Shown here in pieces: positions 23,827 to 31,551 of a stretch of DNA of 64,000 nt. The DNA lies in NCBI GenBank assembly GCA_017439345.1, contig JAFSJJ010000020.1, positions 1-64,000 on the forward strand, given 5' to 3'. The notes beneath the pieces are model-generated. The model worked only from the letters and a program-made list of their open reading frames with translations. It was not told the origin of the DNA and made no database searches. The position numbers were made by a program, and so were the translations under genes. This DNA comes from Synergistaceae bacterium. Its GTDB lineage: Bacteria; Synergistota; Synergistia; Synergistales; Aminobacteriaceae. Each line of letters opens with the position of its first letter. Within the stretch, counting starts at the first letter, position 1.

Positions 23827-25437
23827 ATGTTATTAGGAGCATTAGCAGGAGACATCATCGGCAGTCCTTACGAACATCACAACGTAAAGACTAAAAATTT
23901 TCCGTTAATGTCAAAGCGTTCAAGATTCACTGACGACTCAGTTATGACTCTGGCAATAGCTCATGCGTTGACTAAGTGGCGCAAGGGTTCAAATATAAAC
24001 GAGTCGGAGTTCGAGAAGGCAGTAATTAAATCAATGCAGAAGTTCGGCAGACGTTATCCTCACGCAGGCTACGGCGATCGATTCAAACGTTGGCTTAAAG
24101 ATGACAGCCCTGAACCCTACAACAGCTGGGGCAACGGTTCAGCAATGAGAGTCTCACCTGTCGCATGGTACTTTGATAATTTAGATACAGTCGAAAAATT
24201 TGCAGAGATAACGGCGCGTGTTAGCCATAATCACCCTGAAGGCATAAAGGGAGCTCAAGCAACGGCAGCAGCTGTCTTCATGGCACGGACAGGAAGCACT
24301 AAAGATGAGATAAAAGCATATATCACGAACAAATATAATTATGACTTGACTCGGACTCTTGACGACATAAGACCCAATTATGAATTTGACGTAAGCTGTC
24401 AGAAAAGCGTCCCGGAGGCAATCATTGCATTTCTTGAAGCGTCAGACTTTGAGGACTCAATTAGAAACGCAATATCAATCGGCGGAGACTCTGACACCAT
24501 CGCAGCGATAACCGGCGCAATAGCTCAAGGCATGTGGGGAGTCCCTGAACGTATCGAAAAATTAATCAGACCCAAACTTGACGAGTTCCTGACCCGTGAG
24601 CTTGATAATTTCTACAAGGCTCTTGCAGGTGAGAAAATTCCGGACGTTGATTTAGAGTTAGACTCAGAATCAGAATCAGACTCAAAGCCTCATGAGAAAG
24701 TCAAGAACGGTATTACAGAGATGGTCTTCATTCTTGATCGCAGCGGCTCAATGTCGGGACTTGAGTCAGACACCATCGGGGGCTTTAACTCGATGATAGA
24801 GAAGCAGAAGGGTGAACAGGGTGAAGCAATTGTATCAACAGTTTTATTTGATCACGTAACAGAAGTCCTTCATGACAGAGTCAAATTATCAGAGATTAAG
24901 CCTATGACTGAATCAGAATATTTCACCAGAGGCAGCACAGCTCTTCTTGACGCGGTGGGAGGCTCTATATATCACATAGGGAACATTCACAAGTACGCGA
25001 GGCCCGAAGATGTTCCTGAGAAGACTATATTCGTGATAATAACTGACGGACAGGAAAATTCAAGCACTCACTTCACAGGCGCAAAGATTAAGTCTCTTGT
25101 CGAGAATCAGCAGTCAAAATATGGATGGGAATTCTTATTCATTGGCGCGAATATCGATGCAATCTCAGCAGCAGGAAATATAGGCATCAAGGCAAACAGA
25201 GCCGTTAATTACAGGTCTGACAGAAGAGGAACTGAAGCAGTTTACAGGAGTGTAAGCCGTGCAATGTCGTCCGCGAGAATGTGTGCAAGTGATGCAAGCG
25301 AGCCGATTCCTGATGATTGGTCAGCAGAAATTGAAGAAGACTTCAACAGCAGAGAGCCGATATTTAAATCGCCGTTTGATATAGATAACAATGACGAGAA
25401 TAATGACAATGCAAAAGATAACGGTATACCCTTTTAG
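23827..25437 (+). CDS. ADP-ribosylglycohydrolase fused to a von Willebrand factor A domain
   Basis: 536 residues with two domains. Residues 1-275 are a DraG/ARH-type ADP-ribosylglycohydrolase, with GALAGDIIGSPYE, the metal motif RFTDDSVMT, GNGSAMRVSP, SHNHPEG, and GGDSDTIAAITGA with the second metal cluster. After an Asp/Glu/Ser linker, residues 297-440 form a vWA domain with an intact MIDAS (DRSGSMSG, GSTALLDA, ITDGQEN). The tail is acidic. It should be cytoplasmic and remove ADP-ribose from protein or nucleic acid, with the vWA arm as metal-dependent adhesion module. The fusion is unusual. No ADP-ribosyltransferase is nearby, and the gene stands alone after a 195-base spacer. Confidence 0.88.
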   Translation: MLLGALAGDIIGSPYEHHNVKTKNFPLMSKRSRFTDDSVMTLAIAHALTKWRKGSNINESEFEKAVIKSMQKFGRRYPHAGYGDRFKRWLKDDSPEPYNSWGNGSAMRVSPVAWYFDNLDTVEKFAEITARVSHNHPEGIKGAQATAAAVFMARTGSTKDEIKAYITNKYNYDLTRTLDDIRPNYEFDVSCQKSVPEAIIAFLEASDFEDSIRNAISIGGDSDTIAAITGAIAQGMWGVPERIEKLIRPKLDEFLTRELDNFYKALAGEKIPDVDLELDSESESDSKPHEKVKNGITEMVFILDRSGSMSGLESDTIGGFNSMIEKQKGEQGEAIVSTVLFDHVTEVLHDRVKLSEIKPMTESEYFTRGSTALLDAVGGSIYHIGNIHKYARPEDVPEKTIFVIITDGQENSSTHFTGAKIKSLVENQQSKYGWEFLFIGANIDAISAAGNIGIKANRAVNYRSDRRGTEAVYRSVSRAMSSARMCASDASEPIPDDWSAEIEEDFNSREPIFKSPFDIDNNDENNDNAKDNGIPF

Positions 25438-27021: not shown

Positions 27022-27030
27022 ATTATAGCA
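27022..27030 (-). promoter_or_regulatory. Extended -10 promoter for the NAD(P)-binding/lactamase-fold pair
   Basis: TG-C-TATAAT on the minus strand, overlapping the stop codon region of the LysE gene and about 43 bases upstream of the next start codon. Confidence 0.45.
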
Positions 27031-27601
27031 AGATTTGCACTGCGCACCACAATAATATTATTCCCATCAAGATATTAAACGGTCTGAAATATTTTGCGAT
27101 AAATCTTTGAAGGAGTCCCCCCGCTGCTCCCCACGTGAACCAGCTCACGGCACTGATTGCGATGATAAATACTGCGTGTAACATCATCTCATAAAGTCCT
27201 GCGCCTGAAGGGATAATGTAAGCCGTTAAGATAGTAATGAGATATAGAATAACTTTGACATTCGAGAGTGCGAGAAAAAATGCTCCTGTGAAGCTCACTG
27301 AATTATTTTGCGACTCACTCGGCCTGCTCATTGCGATATGAACAGCAAGCCAGATAATATATAACGCTCCGACATATTTTAAATACTTTACGAGTTCAGG
27401 AAGATAAATCGAAAGCTCATGACAAAATAATATACATGCCAGCATTAATAACGAGAAGCCTGCGAATATCCCGGAAATTACTTCGCGCCCCTTCTTCCAT
27501 CCGTAAGAGCTGACAGAATAGAGCGACATAATATTATTCGGTCCCGGTGTGAAAGTCGTAACAAGTGCGTAGGGCAAATAAGAAAATATAACCTGAAGCA
27601 T
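27023..27601 (-). CDS. LysE-family amino-acid exporter
   Basis: About 192 residues with five to six membrane helices. The LysE/RhtB signature TFTPGPNNIMSLYSVSSYGW lies near the N-terminus, followed by KVILYLITI. These proteins export basic or small neutral amino acids or related metabolites. The open frame reaches a TTG at 27625, but the ATG at 27601 follows a GGAGG and is the more likely start. It is divergent from the cysK leader region. Confidence 0.8.
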   Translation of the reverse strand: MLQVIFSYLPYALVTTFTPGPNNIMSLYSVSSYGWKKGREVISGIFAGFSLLMLACILFCHELSIYLPELVKYLKYVGALYIIWLAVHIAMSRPSESQNNSVSFTGAFFLALSNVKVILYLITILTAYIIPSGAGLYEMMLHAVFIIAISAVSWFTWGAAGGLLQRFIAKYFRPFNILMGIILLWCAVQILL

Positions 27602-27645
27602 GAAAAAAATTTTTTCCTCCGTCAATAAATAAATAATTTTGCATA

Positions 27646-27673
27646 TTGATTCAGTTCGTTAATCATGTATAAT
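27646..27673 (+). promoter_or_regulatory. Promoter of the cysK-cysE operon
   Basis: TTGATT (27646-27651), a 16-base spacer and a perfect TATAAT (27668-27673). Transcription would start near 27680, about 28 bases before the poly-Cys leader ORF. Confidence 0.65.
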
Positions 27674-27707
27674 TTATGCACTAAAATTTTAATACGGGGT
27701 GAACAGT

Positions 27708-27785
27708 ATGTACATTAATTTATTATCAAGCAATACTCTTCATGAGACTCTGTGCTGCTGTTGTTGTCCCTTCTTCAAGTTCTAA
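27708..27785 (+). CDS. 25-residue poly-cysteine leader peptide upstream of cysK
   Basis: A short frame with its own ribosome-binding site (GGGGTGA, 27696-27702) and ATG. It encodes MYINLLSSNTLHETL, five consecutive Cys codons (TGC TGC TGT TGT TGT, 27753-27767), then PFFKF and a stop. Five adjacent Cys codons by chance are very unlikely, and the downstream operon makes cysteine, so it has the form of an attenuation leader that senses charged tRNA-Cys. Comparable poly-Cys leaders are known from mycobacteria. C-C-C-T-T just after the Cys run (27768-27772) is complementary to AAGG of the cysK ribosome-binding site at 27892-27897. This suggests stalling could free that site. The mechanism is inferred. 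Confidence 0.8.
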   Translation: MYINLLSSNTLHETLCCCCCPFFKF

Positions 27786-27909
27786 ATTTCTCACACACAT
27801 TTAACACGCGCTGATAATTTTTCACACAAATAATTTTTCAGTCATTACGCATTAATTAACTTTACTGCGCAGAATTTTTTCACATACTATAAAGGAGCGT
27901 ATTATCATC
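27786..27909 (+). promoter_or_regulatory. Leader region between the poly-Cys ORF and cysK
   Basis: 124 bases, A+T-rich, with several TTTTTC tracts. I see no strong intrinsic terminator. The best candidate is a four-pair CGCA/TGCG stem ahead of TTTTTT at 27881-27889, which is weak. Control may instead be by ribosome-binding-site occlusion or Rho. The cysK ribosome-binding site AAGGAG is at 27892-27897. Confidence 0.45.
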
Positions 27910-28839
27910 ATGAAAATTTATACGTCAATTGATCAGTTAATAGGCCGCACCCCTCTTCTTGAGCTGGTACGAGTCGAGAAGCATTTTAACCTGAACGCAA
28001 AGATTCTCGCGAAACTTGAATACTTCAACCCCGCAGGCAGCGTCAAGGACAGAATCGCAAAGTCAATGATAGACGACGCAGAGTCATCAGGCAAGCTCAA
28101 ACCCGGCAGCGTCATAATCGAACCTACAAGCGGCAACACTGGAATCGGTTTATCATCTGTCGCAGCTTCACGAGGCTATAGAATAATAATCGTCATGCCC
28201 GAAACTATGTCAGTTGAAAGAAGGCTCTTAATGAAGGCTTACGGTGCTGAACTCGTTTTGACTCCGGGAAATAAAGGCATGATGGGAGCTATAGAGAAGG
28301 CTTCGGAACTTGCAAGCGAAATCCCTAACAGCTTTATTGCAGGGCAGTTCGTGAATCCCTCGAACCCTAAAGCTCATCGAGAGACTACAGGCCCGGAAAT
28401 CTGGCAGGACACTGACGGCCAAGTTGATATATTTATCTCAGGAGTCGGCACAGGAGGCACCCTCACAGGAACGGCGGAATATCTCAAGTCTCAGAACAGC
28501 AATATAAAAGTTATCGCTGTCGAACCGTTTAACTCTCCTGTCTTGTCATCAGGTCGATCCGGAGCTCACAAGATTCAAGGCATAGGAGCAGGCTTTGTCC
28601 CTGAAGTCCTGAACACTAGAATCTATAATGAGATTATTACTGTCAAAGATGAAGATGCTCTCTCAACGGGAAAACTAATCGGCAGGCTTGAGGGCTTCTT
28701 GGCTGGTATATCATCAGGAGCTGCGTTACATGCTGCGGTTCTCACTGCTCAGAAGTCAGAGAACGAAGGCAAAAATATAGTCGTAATTCTTCCTGATACG
28801 GGCGAACGTTATTTATCGACTCAGTTATTCAGCGAGTAA
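27910..28839 (+). CDS. cysK: Cysteine synthase (O-acetylserine sulfhydrylase)
   Basis: Combines O-acetylserine and sulfide to give cysteine. 309 residues, full length for CysK. The PLP lysine lies in NPAGSVKDRIA near residue 40, TSGNTGIGLS binds the substrate carboxylate, GVGTGGTLTG is the PLP phosphate loop, and the C-terminal SSGAALHAA is typical. cysE follows 8 bases after its stop. Expression is probably controlled by the poly-Cys leader upstream. Confidence 0.96.
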   Translation: MKIYTSIDQLIGRTPLLELVRVEKHFNLNAKILAKLEYFNPAGSVKDRIAKSMIDDAESSGKLKPGSVIIEPTSGNTGIGLSSVAASRGYRIIIVMPETMSVERRLLMKAYGAELVLTPGNKGMMGAIEKASELASEIPNSFIAGQFVNPSNPKAHRETTGPEIWQDTDGQVDIFISGVGTGGTLTGTAEYLKSQNSNIKVIAVEPFNSPVLSSGRSGAHKIQGIGAGFVPEVLNTRIYNEIITVKDEDALSTGKLIGRLEGFLAGISSGAALHAAVLTAQKSENEGKNIVVILPDTGERYLSTQLFSE

Positions 28840-28847
28840 TATAACTC

Positions 28848-29651
28848 ATGACGTTAGACGAAGCATTAAAAACTTCATGTGAGTCGCTTGCAGGATTGAC
28901 AGCTAACGACGGCGAGGCATTCAACGGACTTAGAGAACGGGTCGAGTCGGCGTTCAGGAATCTTCAGGCGGCTATGTTCCCTTCACATGCTAACTCTAAG
29001 TGCAGAAGTATTAACGAGAGCTTGACACGTGCAGCAGATAAATTGACTCATGCAATAACGAAAACTACAGGCAGCGAGTCAGAGTCAGAAACTATCACAG
29101 CAAAGTTAATCGCGAGACTTCCTGATATTCGCAAAATTTTATGGAGTGATATAACGGCAGCTTATCAGGGCGACCCCGCAGCAAAGAGTCCTGATGAGAT
29201 TATATTAGCTTACCCCGCTTTTACTGCGATAAGTGCGTACAGAGTAGCTCACGAACTTTATATCATGAACGCAAATTTAATATCGCGAATTATCACAGAG
29301 TATGCTCACAGACTGACAGGCATTGACATTCATCCGGGAGCTTCAATCGGTGAGAATTTTTTCATAGATCACGGCACGGGAGTCGTAATCGGCGAGACTT
29401 CAACAATCGGGAAGCGGGTCAAGATTTATCAGAACGTTACAATCGGCGCGAAGAGCTTTGATGTTGCTCCTGACGGCTCACTTGTTAAGGGAATAAAGAG
29501 GCACCCTGACATAGGCAATGACGTAGTAATTTATGCAGGAGCTACGATATTGGGAGGCGATACTGTCATCGGCGATAATTGCGTAATCGGGGGCAATGTG
29601 TGGCTGACTCACTCGGTGAAGGCGGGAAGCGTTGTCTTGAATGAGAGATAA
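28848..29651 (+). CDS. cysE: Serine O-acetyltransferase (EpsC/CysE type)
   Basis: Acetylates serine to O-acetylserine, the substrate of CysK. 267 residues. The N-terminal helical part is followed by a left-handed beta-helix of hexapeptide repeats with the catalytic block DIHPGASIGENFFIDHGTG and VVIGETSTIGKRVKIYQNV. The C-terminal GGNVWLTHSV is characteristic of the EpsC-like branch. The C-terminus is short after the beta-helix, which may weaken CysK binding. Confidence 0.93.
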   Translation: MTLDEALKTSCESLAGLTANDGEAFNGLRERVESAFRNLQAAMFPSHANSKCRSINESLTRAADKLTHAITKTTGSESESETITAKLIARLPDIRKILWSDITAAYQGDPAAKSPDEIILAYPAFTAISAYRVAHELYIMNANLISRIITEYAHRLTGIDIHPGASIGENFFIDHGTGVVIGETSTIGKRVKIYQNVTIGAKSFDVAPDGSLVKGIKRHPDIGNDVVIYAGATILGGDTVIGDNCVIGGNVWLTHSVKAGSVVLNER

Positions 29652-29669: not shown

Positions 29670-30461
29670 ATGAATTACTGGACAAGACAAAGCATAGAAT
29701 TTGCACAGCAGAGAAATTATTTAGATGAGTTATTCAAAGTTTACCCGTTGAATCCTAATTTGCGCCGCGAACTTTCGGGAGAGCAGATAGACAAGATTTA
29801 TCATGCTTACAGTGAACGTGATAATATTGCGCTCGTTGAGACTCTCCTGAAGTCCGAACTTTTCCCGATTAAAGACTCGTATGTACCTTTTCTGCGTCAT
29901 GACACGGGGGCTTTATTGCGTAATCCTCAGACAGTAAACAGAATAGCAGGCAGTCTCTATCAAATGGGAATCGAAACTATATTAGAGAAATGCACATCTC
30001 CCAAAGAGACAAACAGACAAATAGGGCCGTTGTTCAAGAACTGGATTCAAAGAGGTACGCTCGGAGTCCCTGTACTGAATAATCCTGATGAGTTCATAAA
30101 TTGCGAAAGTGATTGCGTATTCAACTCTTCTGACGCGATTATGCAGGACTTTGCACAAAACTTTTTAGGCTTCAAGCGAAACAAGGGCATTGACTTTATA
30201 GCGAGATTCAATAATAAATACATCGTCGGAGAGGCAAAATTTTTAACTGACTTCGGAGGCCATCAGAACGCACAGTTTGAGGACGCTCTTAATACACTTC
30301 ACAGCTTCAGGAAAGTAAATAATGACGTGATACCAATAGCAATTATTGACGGAGTAATTTATATCCCAAACAACGGCAAAATGTATAAATACCTGAGCAG
30401 CCATGATAAAGAATATATATTTTCTGCTCTTGTACTGCGCGAGTTCCTTTACTCTTTATAA
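29670..30461 (+). CDS. Type II restriction endonuclease (PD-(D/E)XK fold)
   Basis: 263 residues. The catalytic core is visible as GIDFIARFNNKYIVGEAKFL at about 190-209, giving the D...ExK motif, followed by TDFGGHQNAQF. An adjoining N6/N4 methyltransferase one base downstream makes it a restriction enzyme. I recall a resemblance to the Tsp45I family (GTSAC), but cannot confirm specificity. It begins 18 bases after cysE, so transcription from the cys promoter is possible. Confidence 0.75.
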   Translation: MNYWTRQSIEFAQQRNYLDELFKVYPLNPNLRRELSGEQIDKIYHAYSERDNIALVETLLKSELFPIKDSYVPFLRHDTGALLRNPQTVNRIAGSLYQMGIETILEKCTSPKETNRQIGPLFKNWIQRGTLGVPVLNNPDEFINCESDCVFNSSDAIMQDFAQNFLGFKRNKGIDFIARFNNKYIVGEAKFLTDFGGHQNAQFEDALNTLHSFRKVNNDVIPIAIIDGVIYIPNNGKMYKYLSSHDKEYIFSALVLREFLYSL

Positions 30462-30462
30462 A

Positions 30463-31551
30463 ATGATACAGCTTGTATTTGACGATAAACCCTCACGCCG
30501 TGAAATCCTGAATAAAATATTGCTTGAGTCAAGAAATATAACATTACCAGTCTCCGGAAATATTTTAATCAAGTCCGAAAATTTTACAGCTTTGTCACTT
30601 CTCCTGAATCATTACCGTGAAAGAATTGATTTAGTCTACATAGATCCGCCGTTCAATACAATGCAGGACTTCTTTATTTCAGACAGGCGCGCTAACTCCG
30701 TGAGTTCCGTGAAAGAACACAGGGCATATACTGACAAGATGACTCCTGAAAAATTTCTTGCGTTCATGTACGAGAGATTAATAATTATTCATGAGCTTTT
30801 ATCAGTCAGGGGCTCTTTATATCTTCACATTGACTGCAAGACCGGGCATTACGTTAAAATCATTCTTGATGAGATATTCGGCACTGAAAATTTTATTAAT
30901 GATATAGCACGCATTAAATCAAATCCTAAAAATTTTTATCGCAGGGCATGGGGCAACGAACGCGACATGATTTTATTCTATGCAAAGGATTCGCGATACA
31001 ACATCTGGAACGACATTAAAGACTCGATTAACTCAGACGAACTCGCGAGAAGATTCCCAAAAATTGACTCTCAAGGCAGGCGTTATACTACAATTCCCCT
31101 TCATGCTCCAGGCGAGACTCGTGACGGCGTAACCGGCCAAGCGTGGCGAAATATTCCGGTTCCTGAAGGCAGACATTGGAGGACTGACCCCGCAGAATTC
31201 GACAGGCTGGACTCTCTGGGCTTAATAGAATGGTCAAAGACGGGCAACCCGCGAATAATAAAATATGCTGACGAACATAACGGCAAAAAGATTCAAGACG
31301 TATGGACGTTTAAAGATCCTCAAAATCCCGTTTACCCTACAGAAAAGAATCACGACATGCTGAAATTAATTATTGCTCAGTCCTCACTTCCTGAGAGCAT
31401 TATTCTTGACTGTTTTGCAGGGAGCGGGGCTTCTTTATTATGTGCCTCTGAACTTGGCCGTCACTGGATAGGAATAGATAAATCGAAACAGGCAATAAAT
31501 ATTATGCGGAAAAATTTAACGTGTGAATATGCTTTTATTGAGCTGCAGTGA
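30463..31551 (+). CDS. DNA N6-adenine/N4-cytosine methyltransferase, beta class
   Basis: About 362 residues when started at the ATG at 30463, which lies 1 base past the endonuclease stop. An upstream ATG at 30403 is in frame but within the endonuclease gene. Motif IV (LVYIDPPFNT, near residue 60) precedes motif I (DCFAGSGASLL, near 320), the order of beta-class enzymes. It protects sites cut by the preceding endonuclease, forming a compact type II system. Confidence 0.88.
   Translation: MIQLVFDDKPSRREILNKILLESRNITLPVSGNILIKSENFTALSLLLNHYRERIDLVYIDPPFNTMQDFFISDRRANSVSSVKEHRAYTDKMTPEKFLAFMYERLIIIHELLSVRGSLYLHIDCKTGHYVKIILDEIFGTENFINDIARIKSNPKNFYRRAWGNERDMILFYAKDSRYNIWNDIKDSINSDELARRFPKIDSQGRRYTTIPLHAPGETRDGVTGQAWRNIPVPEGRHWRTDPAEFDRLDSLGLIEWSKTGNPRIIKYADEHNGKKIQDVWTFKDPQNPVYPTEKNHDMLKLIIAQSSLPESIILDCFAGSGASLLCASELGRHWIGIDKSKQAINIMRKNLTCEYAFIELQ

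Follow-up and report, generated by a model that had tools for sequence, protein, structure and literature searches.

A putative cysteine-reading leader with a self-pairing ribosome-binding site upstream of cysK-cysE in Synergistaceae

Described cysteine leaders and the cysK-cysE locus

Cysteine leaders without terminators have been predicted in Mycobacterium, P. acnes and B. longum, and Rho has been suggested to act there (Seliverstov et al. 2005, PMC1262725). The mycobacterial examples, leaderless short ORFs (sORFs) encoding polycysteine, have reportedly been tested (Canestrari et al. 2020, Mol Microbiol 114:93). In Rhodobacterales, uORFC-8-2 precedes cysS and carries tandem Cys codons at about positions 14-15 in the first stem, which was read as ribosome-mediated attenuation (PMC8632094). 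CruR (bp2923) of Bordetella pertussis senses copper through a CXXC motif and a C-terminal RAPP arrest motif, and the lead ribosome, or its translation arrest, limits the access of Rho (PMC9426467). The sequence-only reading of the present DNA had named mycobacteria as the place where polycysteine leaders are established. This is correct and incomplete, since the tandem-Cys uORFs of Rhodobacterales have to be added. Its remark that none is described in this kind of organism agrees with the literature searched, in which none was found for Synergistota and from which most subscription journals fall outside.

The window, the whole stretch of 64,000 nucleotides analysed here, belongs to a genome of 2.54 Mb whose near named relatives are uncultured Synergistaceae/Synergistales of ruminant origin. 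The features of the locus are collected in Table 1. The promoter, the Shine-Dalgarno sequence (SD), the frame of 25 codons with its five Cys codons and the downstream cysK and cysE, all of which had been proposed from the letters of the sequence, were each found where they had been placed. The genus-wide promoter consensus at the aligned position is TTGATTtagtg.gt.atTCgTGgCATAATT (leader alignment), and the predicted 5' UTR of the leader is about 28 nt long as estimated from the -10 position. The leader stop and the cysK start are separated by 124 nt, and cysK and cysE by 8 nt. The cysE product also scores 156 bits against TIGR01172, under the cut-off of 211.

Table 1. Features of the leader locus and their positions in the window
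Feature	Coordinates	Strand	Basis
Sigma-70-type promoter, TTGATT-16-TATAAT	27646..27673	+	consensus scan and alignment
-35 element TTGATT, followed by 16-nt spacer	27646-27651	+	
-10 element TATAAT	27668-27673	+	
Leader SD and spacer, hairpin 5' arm; genus consensus GAGGTGAAACAGT	27696..27707	+	sequence, alignment, pairing
Leader SD GGGGTG	27696-27701	+	
Leader start codon ATG	27708-27710	+	
Leader ORF, MYINLLSSNTLHETLCCCCCPFFKF, 25 codons and stop	27708..27785	+	kept in 28/38 same-genus genomes
Five Cys codons in a row, TGC TGC TGT TGT TGT, presumed sensor	27753..27767	+	column conservation
Hairpin 3' arm (27751-27762 and 27767-27770), spanning the Cys run and CCC	27751..27770	+	MFE structure; arm-swap and recoding tests, 27 species
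Leader stop codon	27783-27785	+	
Gap, C-rich, G-poor and weakly structured; candidate Rho-loading region	27786..27891	+	C-G excess
cysK SD AAGGAG	27892..27897	+	sequence
cysK, cysteine synthase A	27910..28839	+	TIGR01139, 445 bits (cut-off 351)
cysE-type serine O-acetyltransferase	28848..29651	+	NF041874 EpsC, 152 bits (cut-off 150)
LysE-family transporter, divergent (context only)	27023..27625	-	PF01810, above cut-off

Several neighbouring features may be mentioned here. The best NCBIfam match of the divergent LysE-family gene is the cysteine/O-acetylserine exporter model NF007653 (133 bits, under the cut-off of 193). The intergenic region is common to this gene and the cysteine operon, and joint control of cysteine export and synthesis is therefore possible. 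Many cysK promoters (loci L026, L030, L113, L152-L154) carry a motif overlapping their -35/-10 spacer, TATTGNNTTAGTRGG, whether or not a leader follows. The motif may be an operator, and the copy in the window (region 27646-27673) is diverged. The genome contains one clear Rrf2-family regulator. Directly behind cysE, a Tsp45I-type restriction enzyme and an N6/N4 DNA methylase are encoded in overlapping reading frames (29670-31551, + strand). The gene at 23827-25437 (+ strand) has an ADP-ribosylglycohydrolase domain in residues 1-238 (Pfam). Its C-terminal part, which has no Pfam match, looks von Willebrand A-like by eye (ILDRSGSMSG).

Like the mycobacterial polycysteine sORFs, the leader is a short ORF with a Cys run near the stop, located upstream of cysteine genes and with no recognisable intrinsic terminator. 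However, the mycobacterial sORFs are leaderless and occur at several loci per genome, while the leader presented here is led by an SD that is conserved in the genus and has one clear site per genome. Its Cys run is predicted to pair with the SD of the leader itself, with no sign that a downstream SD is masked. The two groups belong to different phyla, and the leaders have no traceable homology. We do not place the leader in the mycobacterial class, since initiation is not leaderless, there is no set of several loci per genome and the predicted folds gave no signal of a masked downstream SD. The leader resembles uORFC-8-2 in being a structured leader whose uORF has its tandem Cys codons within the first stem, but that system has an intrinsic terminator and precedes cysS, whereas no shared terminator is found here and the genes are cysK-cysE.

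Conservation and distribution of the leader

The comparison took in the DNA upstream of cysK from the 43 genomes that make up the genus; 38 of these had readable sequence there and were assessed. An equivalent leader is found in 28 of them and is absent in the other ten, so it is not essential. These relatives, in which the Cys run is kept and the flanks drift, show that the leader is more than a chance reading frame. The alignment-based statistics refer to 27 leaders. They have 19-25 codons and consist of an SD of the consensus given in Table 1, a Cys run and, 1-8 codons past the run, the stop. Anchored on the first Cys, columns 0, +1 and +2 contain 100%, 96% and 93% Cys, while the flanking residues are conserved to no more than 52%, the stop position excepted. 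Cys is the sole strongly fixed residue; both TGC and TGT are used, and the third bases vary. The run usually has 3-6 residues (range 2 to 6), with one leader reading CFCC. A frame-blind script found the SD-linked start in frame with the Cys run at all 26 scorable loci. The leader of L011 escaped the pattern of the script, yet its start is in frame by eye. The distance from leader to cysK is usually 62-125 nt, reaching 190 nt at L006 and more than 500 nt in G005.

On sequence alone, the initiation signals of the leader, the conserved Cys run and the cysK/cysE context fit an amino-acid leader attenuator. The cysteine-responsive control by a poly-Cys leader that had been proposed for this locus thus appears well supported on comparative grounds: the Cys codons are retained amid drifting flanks, and cysteine is what the two genes produce. 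In most leaders of the genus, an SD-like [GA]AGG (Glu/Lys-Ala/Val codons) is also conserved 6-9 nt 5' of the Cys run. Extended hairpin pairing accounts for it in some species only, and it may act as an internal signal for pausing.

A search with a covariance model of the leaders gave a single clear site in each genome, and this site invariably lay before cysK. The two sites in G041 go with an assembly that has two copies of the locus. In further genomes the model gave only weak off-target matches, in three of them, and a genome-wide Cys4 scan of the window's own genome detected no second SD-led leader of the same design. A multi-locus Cys-leader regulon was rejected in view of the single clear site per genome and the lack of any other convincing Cys4 match in the window's own genome. 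The absence of the leader from ten of the 38 genomes might also be expected if the small gene were passive, or encoded a Cys-rich peptide acting in trans, and did not regulate cysK. However, the leader always lies directly before cysK, with one site per locus, and an RNA-level constraint appears to link its SD to the Cys codons (see below). We consider a passive or trans-acting role scarcely credible.

Most leaderless members of the genus have a similar promoter, TTGCATATTGNTTTAGTAGGTTATATAAT, which is sited close to the cysK SD, and the cysK tree fits, as one of several possible histories, a single gain of the leader within the genus followed by about three losses. In sister genera a separate type of Cys-containing leader is found at the same place, for example MRDFLLKILISEIHSGEMCCRCHACVAFS; in these leaders the N-terminus is conserved and the Cys residues are spaced. 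In one genome of a different genus, the leader before cysK begins VAHIYDRLAKTSFPLSELACRCCRCTDD. A second family of the order, represented by 20 regions upstream of cysK, yielded no Cys leader, and neither did the DNA upstream of cysK paralogues. Three loci of a further family (L248-L250), in which the cysK start was not located, gave no output and are not counted as evidence. The presence of Cys leaders in the genus and in its sister genera makes cysteine leaders before cysK a repeated theme of the family.

The spaced Cys residues and conserved N-terminus of the sister-genus leaders would also be in keeping with a nascent Cys-rich peptide that senses metal or redox state, as in CruR, rather than with the reading of tRNA-Cys charging. 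In CruR, termination depends on Rho, and the uORF has a Cys motif and is accompanied by a C>G bubble (PMC9426467); the leader presented here is likewise a Cys-containing uORF followed by an unstructured C>G stretch. It has, however, no CXXC/RAPP motif pair. The run varies from 2 to 6 residues and once reads CFCC, which means that no fixed metal motif is kept in the genus; no strictly conserved arrest motif follows the run, and the downstream genes make cysteine. Metal or redox sensing is therefore regarded as very improbable.

Pairing between the leader SD and the cysteine codons

In the predicted fold of the window, the Cys run and the following CCC are placed against the SD and start codon of the same leader, with CCC 27768-27770 paired to the SD. 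The Cys run and the next codons are able to pair with the leader's own SD/start codon in all 27 aligned leaders. The consensus obtained with RNAalifold on the MAFFT alignment is weak (-1.67 kcal/mol) because the repeated UGY codons permit two pairing registers, and arm-swap and recoding tests were therefore used instead. Over the 27 species the cognate arms gave a mean of -22.1 kcal/mol and the swapped arms -18.3 kcal/mol, and none of 20000 permutations was as good as the cognate arrangement (P<5e-5). These pairing tests ignore sequence relatedness, but the swapping of arms should favour the cognate pair only under a pairing constraint. Synonymous recoding gave a weaker fold in 26 of the 27 leaders (mean z -1.73); in the window's own leader the hairpin is only marginally stabler than its recodings (z -0.17).

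The third base of the codon before UGU follows the SD spacer. Where the spacer contains ACAG, the sequence is CUGU (24 of 24 leaders), and where it contains ACAA, the sequence is UUGU with no CUGU (3 of 3). Two of the three ACAA leaders are closely related, and this covariation amounts to about two events. Out of 15 region pairs tested, SD/start with Cys is alone in showing a strong effect. The leader SD with the cysK SD (nominal P 0.011) and two 5'-UTR pairs (P 0.03) do not survive correction for the 15 tests. The RNA of the window as a whole folds no better than its shuffles (z 0.39), and the hairpin of the type-2 leaders of the sister genera has no covariation support (P 0.28, n=7). The arm-swap, recoding and covariation results indicate that an RNA-level constraint ties the leader SD to the Cys codons in the genus.

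In mycobacteria, the downstream SD is reportedly masked and becomes accessible only through ribosome stalling at the Cys tract. A similar translational attenuation had been put forward for the present locus, in which the cysK SD would be hidden by CCCTT of the leader RNA and freed by a ribosome that stalls at the Cys codons. The idea has a reported mycobacterial precedent (Canestrari et al. 2020), AAGG and CCCTT are complementary in the window, and the predicted accessibility of the cysK SD rises weakly, from a mean of 0.37 to 0.42, if the Cys codons are taken to be occupied by a ribosome (nominal P 0.046). However, this change is small and its direction is inconsistent between species. CCCTT is not kept in all leaders, and no cognate preference for the cysK SD region was detected in the Cys region (permutation P 0.65, z +0.45) or in the gap (P 0.56). 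The masking by CCCTT is thus not upheld by the comparison, and translational attenuation of cysK seems unlikely.

The gap before cysK and the proposed mechanism

The scan of the window detected nothing terminator-like in the vicinity of the leader, in accordance with the earlier remark that no strong terminator hairpin is visible. No stem with a U tract is common to the relatives, L011 alone having one locally terminator-like stem, and no signal of a competing antiterminator-type pairing was obtained among the 15 region pairs. The leader shares with the classical trp, his and ilv leaders a run of codons for the end product of the pathway, but the alternating antiterminator/terminator pair of those leaders was not detected here. 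A classical attenuator with an intrinsic terminator was rejected, there being no shared terminator and no alternative pairing. A T-box or Rfam riboswitch was also rejected, as the window has no Rfam match at the gathering score.

Some repeated elements were observed in the gaps. A short inverted repeat, GCCTGA...TCAGGC, is present in many of them (for example L010, L015, L016 and L025), in most cases with no U run. In L251 (577-944, G005:C89), a 114-bp tandem repeat of 3.2 copies with 95% match lies between leader and cysK, and each copy bears an SD-like AAGGAGG.

Pause hairpins are part of the classical trp and his attenuators. By analogy, the SD/Cys hairpin could serve mainly as a pause or coupling hairpin at which RNA polymerase awaits the pioneer ribosome, with attenuation exerted through a downstream signal such as the GCCUGA...UCAGGC stem. 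The occurrence of this inverted repeat in many gaps is in its favour. On the other hand, most copies of the short stem have no U run, several genomes with a leader do not contain the stem, and the pairings of the gap with the cysK SD and with the Cys region are without signal. This arrangement is considered quite unlikely.

The gap of the window has a C-G excess of 0.107, which ranks it in the highest 3.8% when set against 131 control upstream regions from the same genome. The mean over 27 species is 0.078 against -0.009 for the controls (P = 6e-10), where the 131 controls come from one genome and the gaps from 27 species. The gaps are also less structured than the controls (-0.106 and -0.143 kcal/mol per nt, respectively). 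A rho gene is present in the genome; at the level of the sequence, both the C-rich, weakly structured post-leader region and the rho gene expected for a Rho-dependent leader attenuator of the tnaC/CruR type are there. These gap features are compatible with Rho, C>G regions being weak predictors of Rho termination. The lack of a shared terminator, the low-structure C>G gap and the presence of rho together allow us to favour Rho-dependent attenuation.

We propose, with a probability of roughly 0.6, that the leader is a ribosome-mediated cis attenuator of cysK-cysE which reads charged tRNA-Cys, closes its own ribosome-binding site and probably depends on Rho. The reading of charged tRNA-Cys follows from the Cys codons and the gene context. 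A ribosome would load on the nascent leader and arrive at the run of Cys codons, usually 3-6 in number, shortly ahead of the stop. If cysteine were ample, it would complete the leader and depart, after which the Cys codons and the following CCC/UUC would fold back on the leader's own SD/AUG, so that no second ribosome could load. The C-rich, weakly structured gap would be left bare, and Rho would probably stop the polymerase ahead of cysK or in its early part. Under cysteine shortage, the ribosome would park on the Cys codons and the hairpin could not close; more ribosomes would queue, the access of Rho would be limited and cysK-cysE would be transcribed. The leader would be freely loadable only before the Cys codons are transcribed or while a ribosome occupies them.

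The translation of the leader, the stalling at Cys codons and the direction of control are inferred from sequence comparison. The Rho step is the most uncertain part of the mechanism, and, with a ribosome at the first Cys codon, a large part of the gap would still lie open to Rho. It is possible, and we put it forward tentatively, that the sensing codons form part of the anti-SD of their own leader and that the position of the ribosome decides on reloading. The leader would then be a single-shot, self-closing cysteine sensor, with neither a terminator/antiterminator pair nor masking of a downstream SD.

Sensor codons that pair with the ribosome-binding site of the same leader were not found among the Cys leaders described in the literature examined. 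Here such pairing is supported by arm swapping, recoding and synonymous-site covariation in 27 leaders. A search beyond Actinobacteria for short unannotated ORFs with Cys runs in front of sulfur genes is worthwhile. The proposed attenuator would extend cysteine-codon attenuation to Synergistota and suggests that the counting of cysteine codons as a means of control arose several times.
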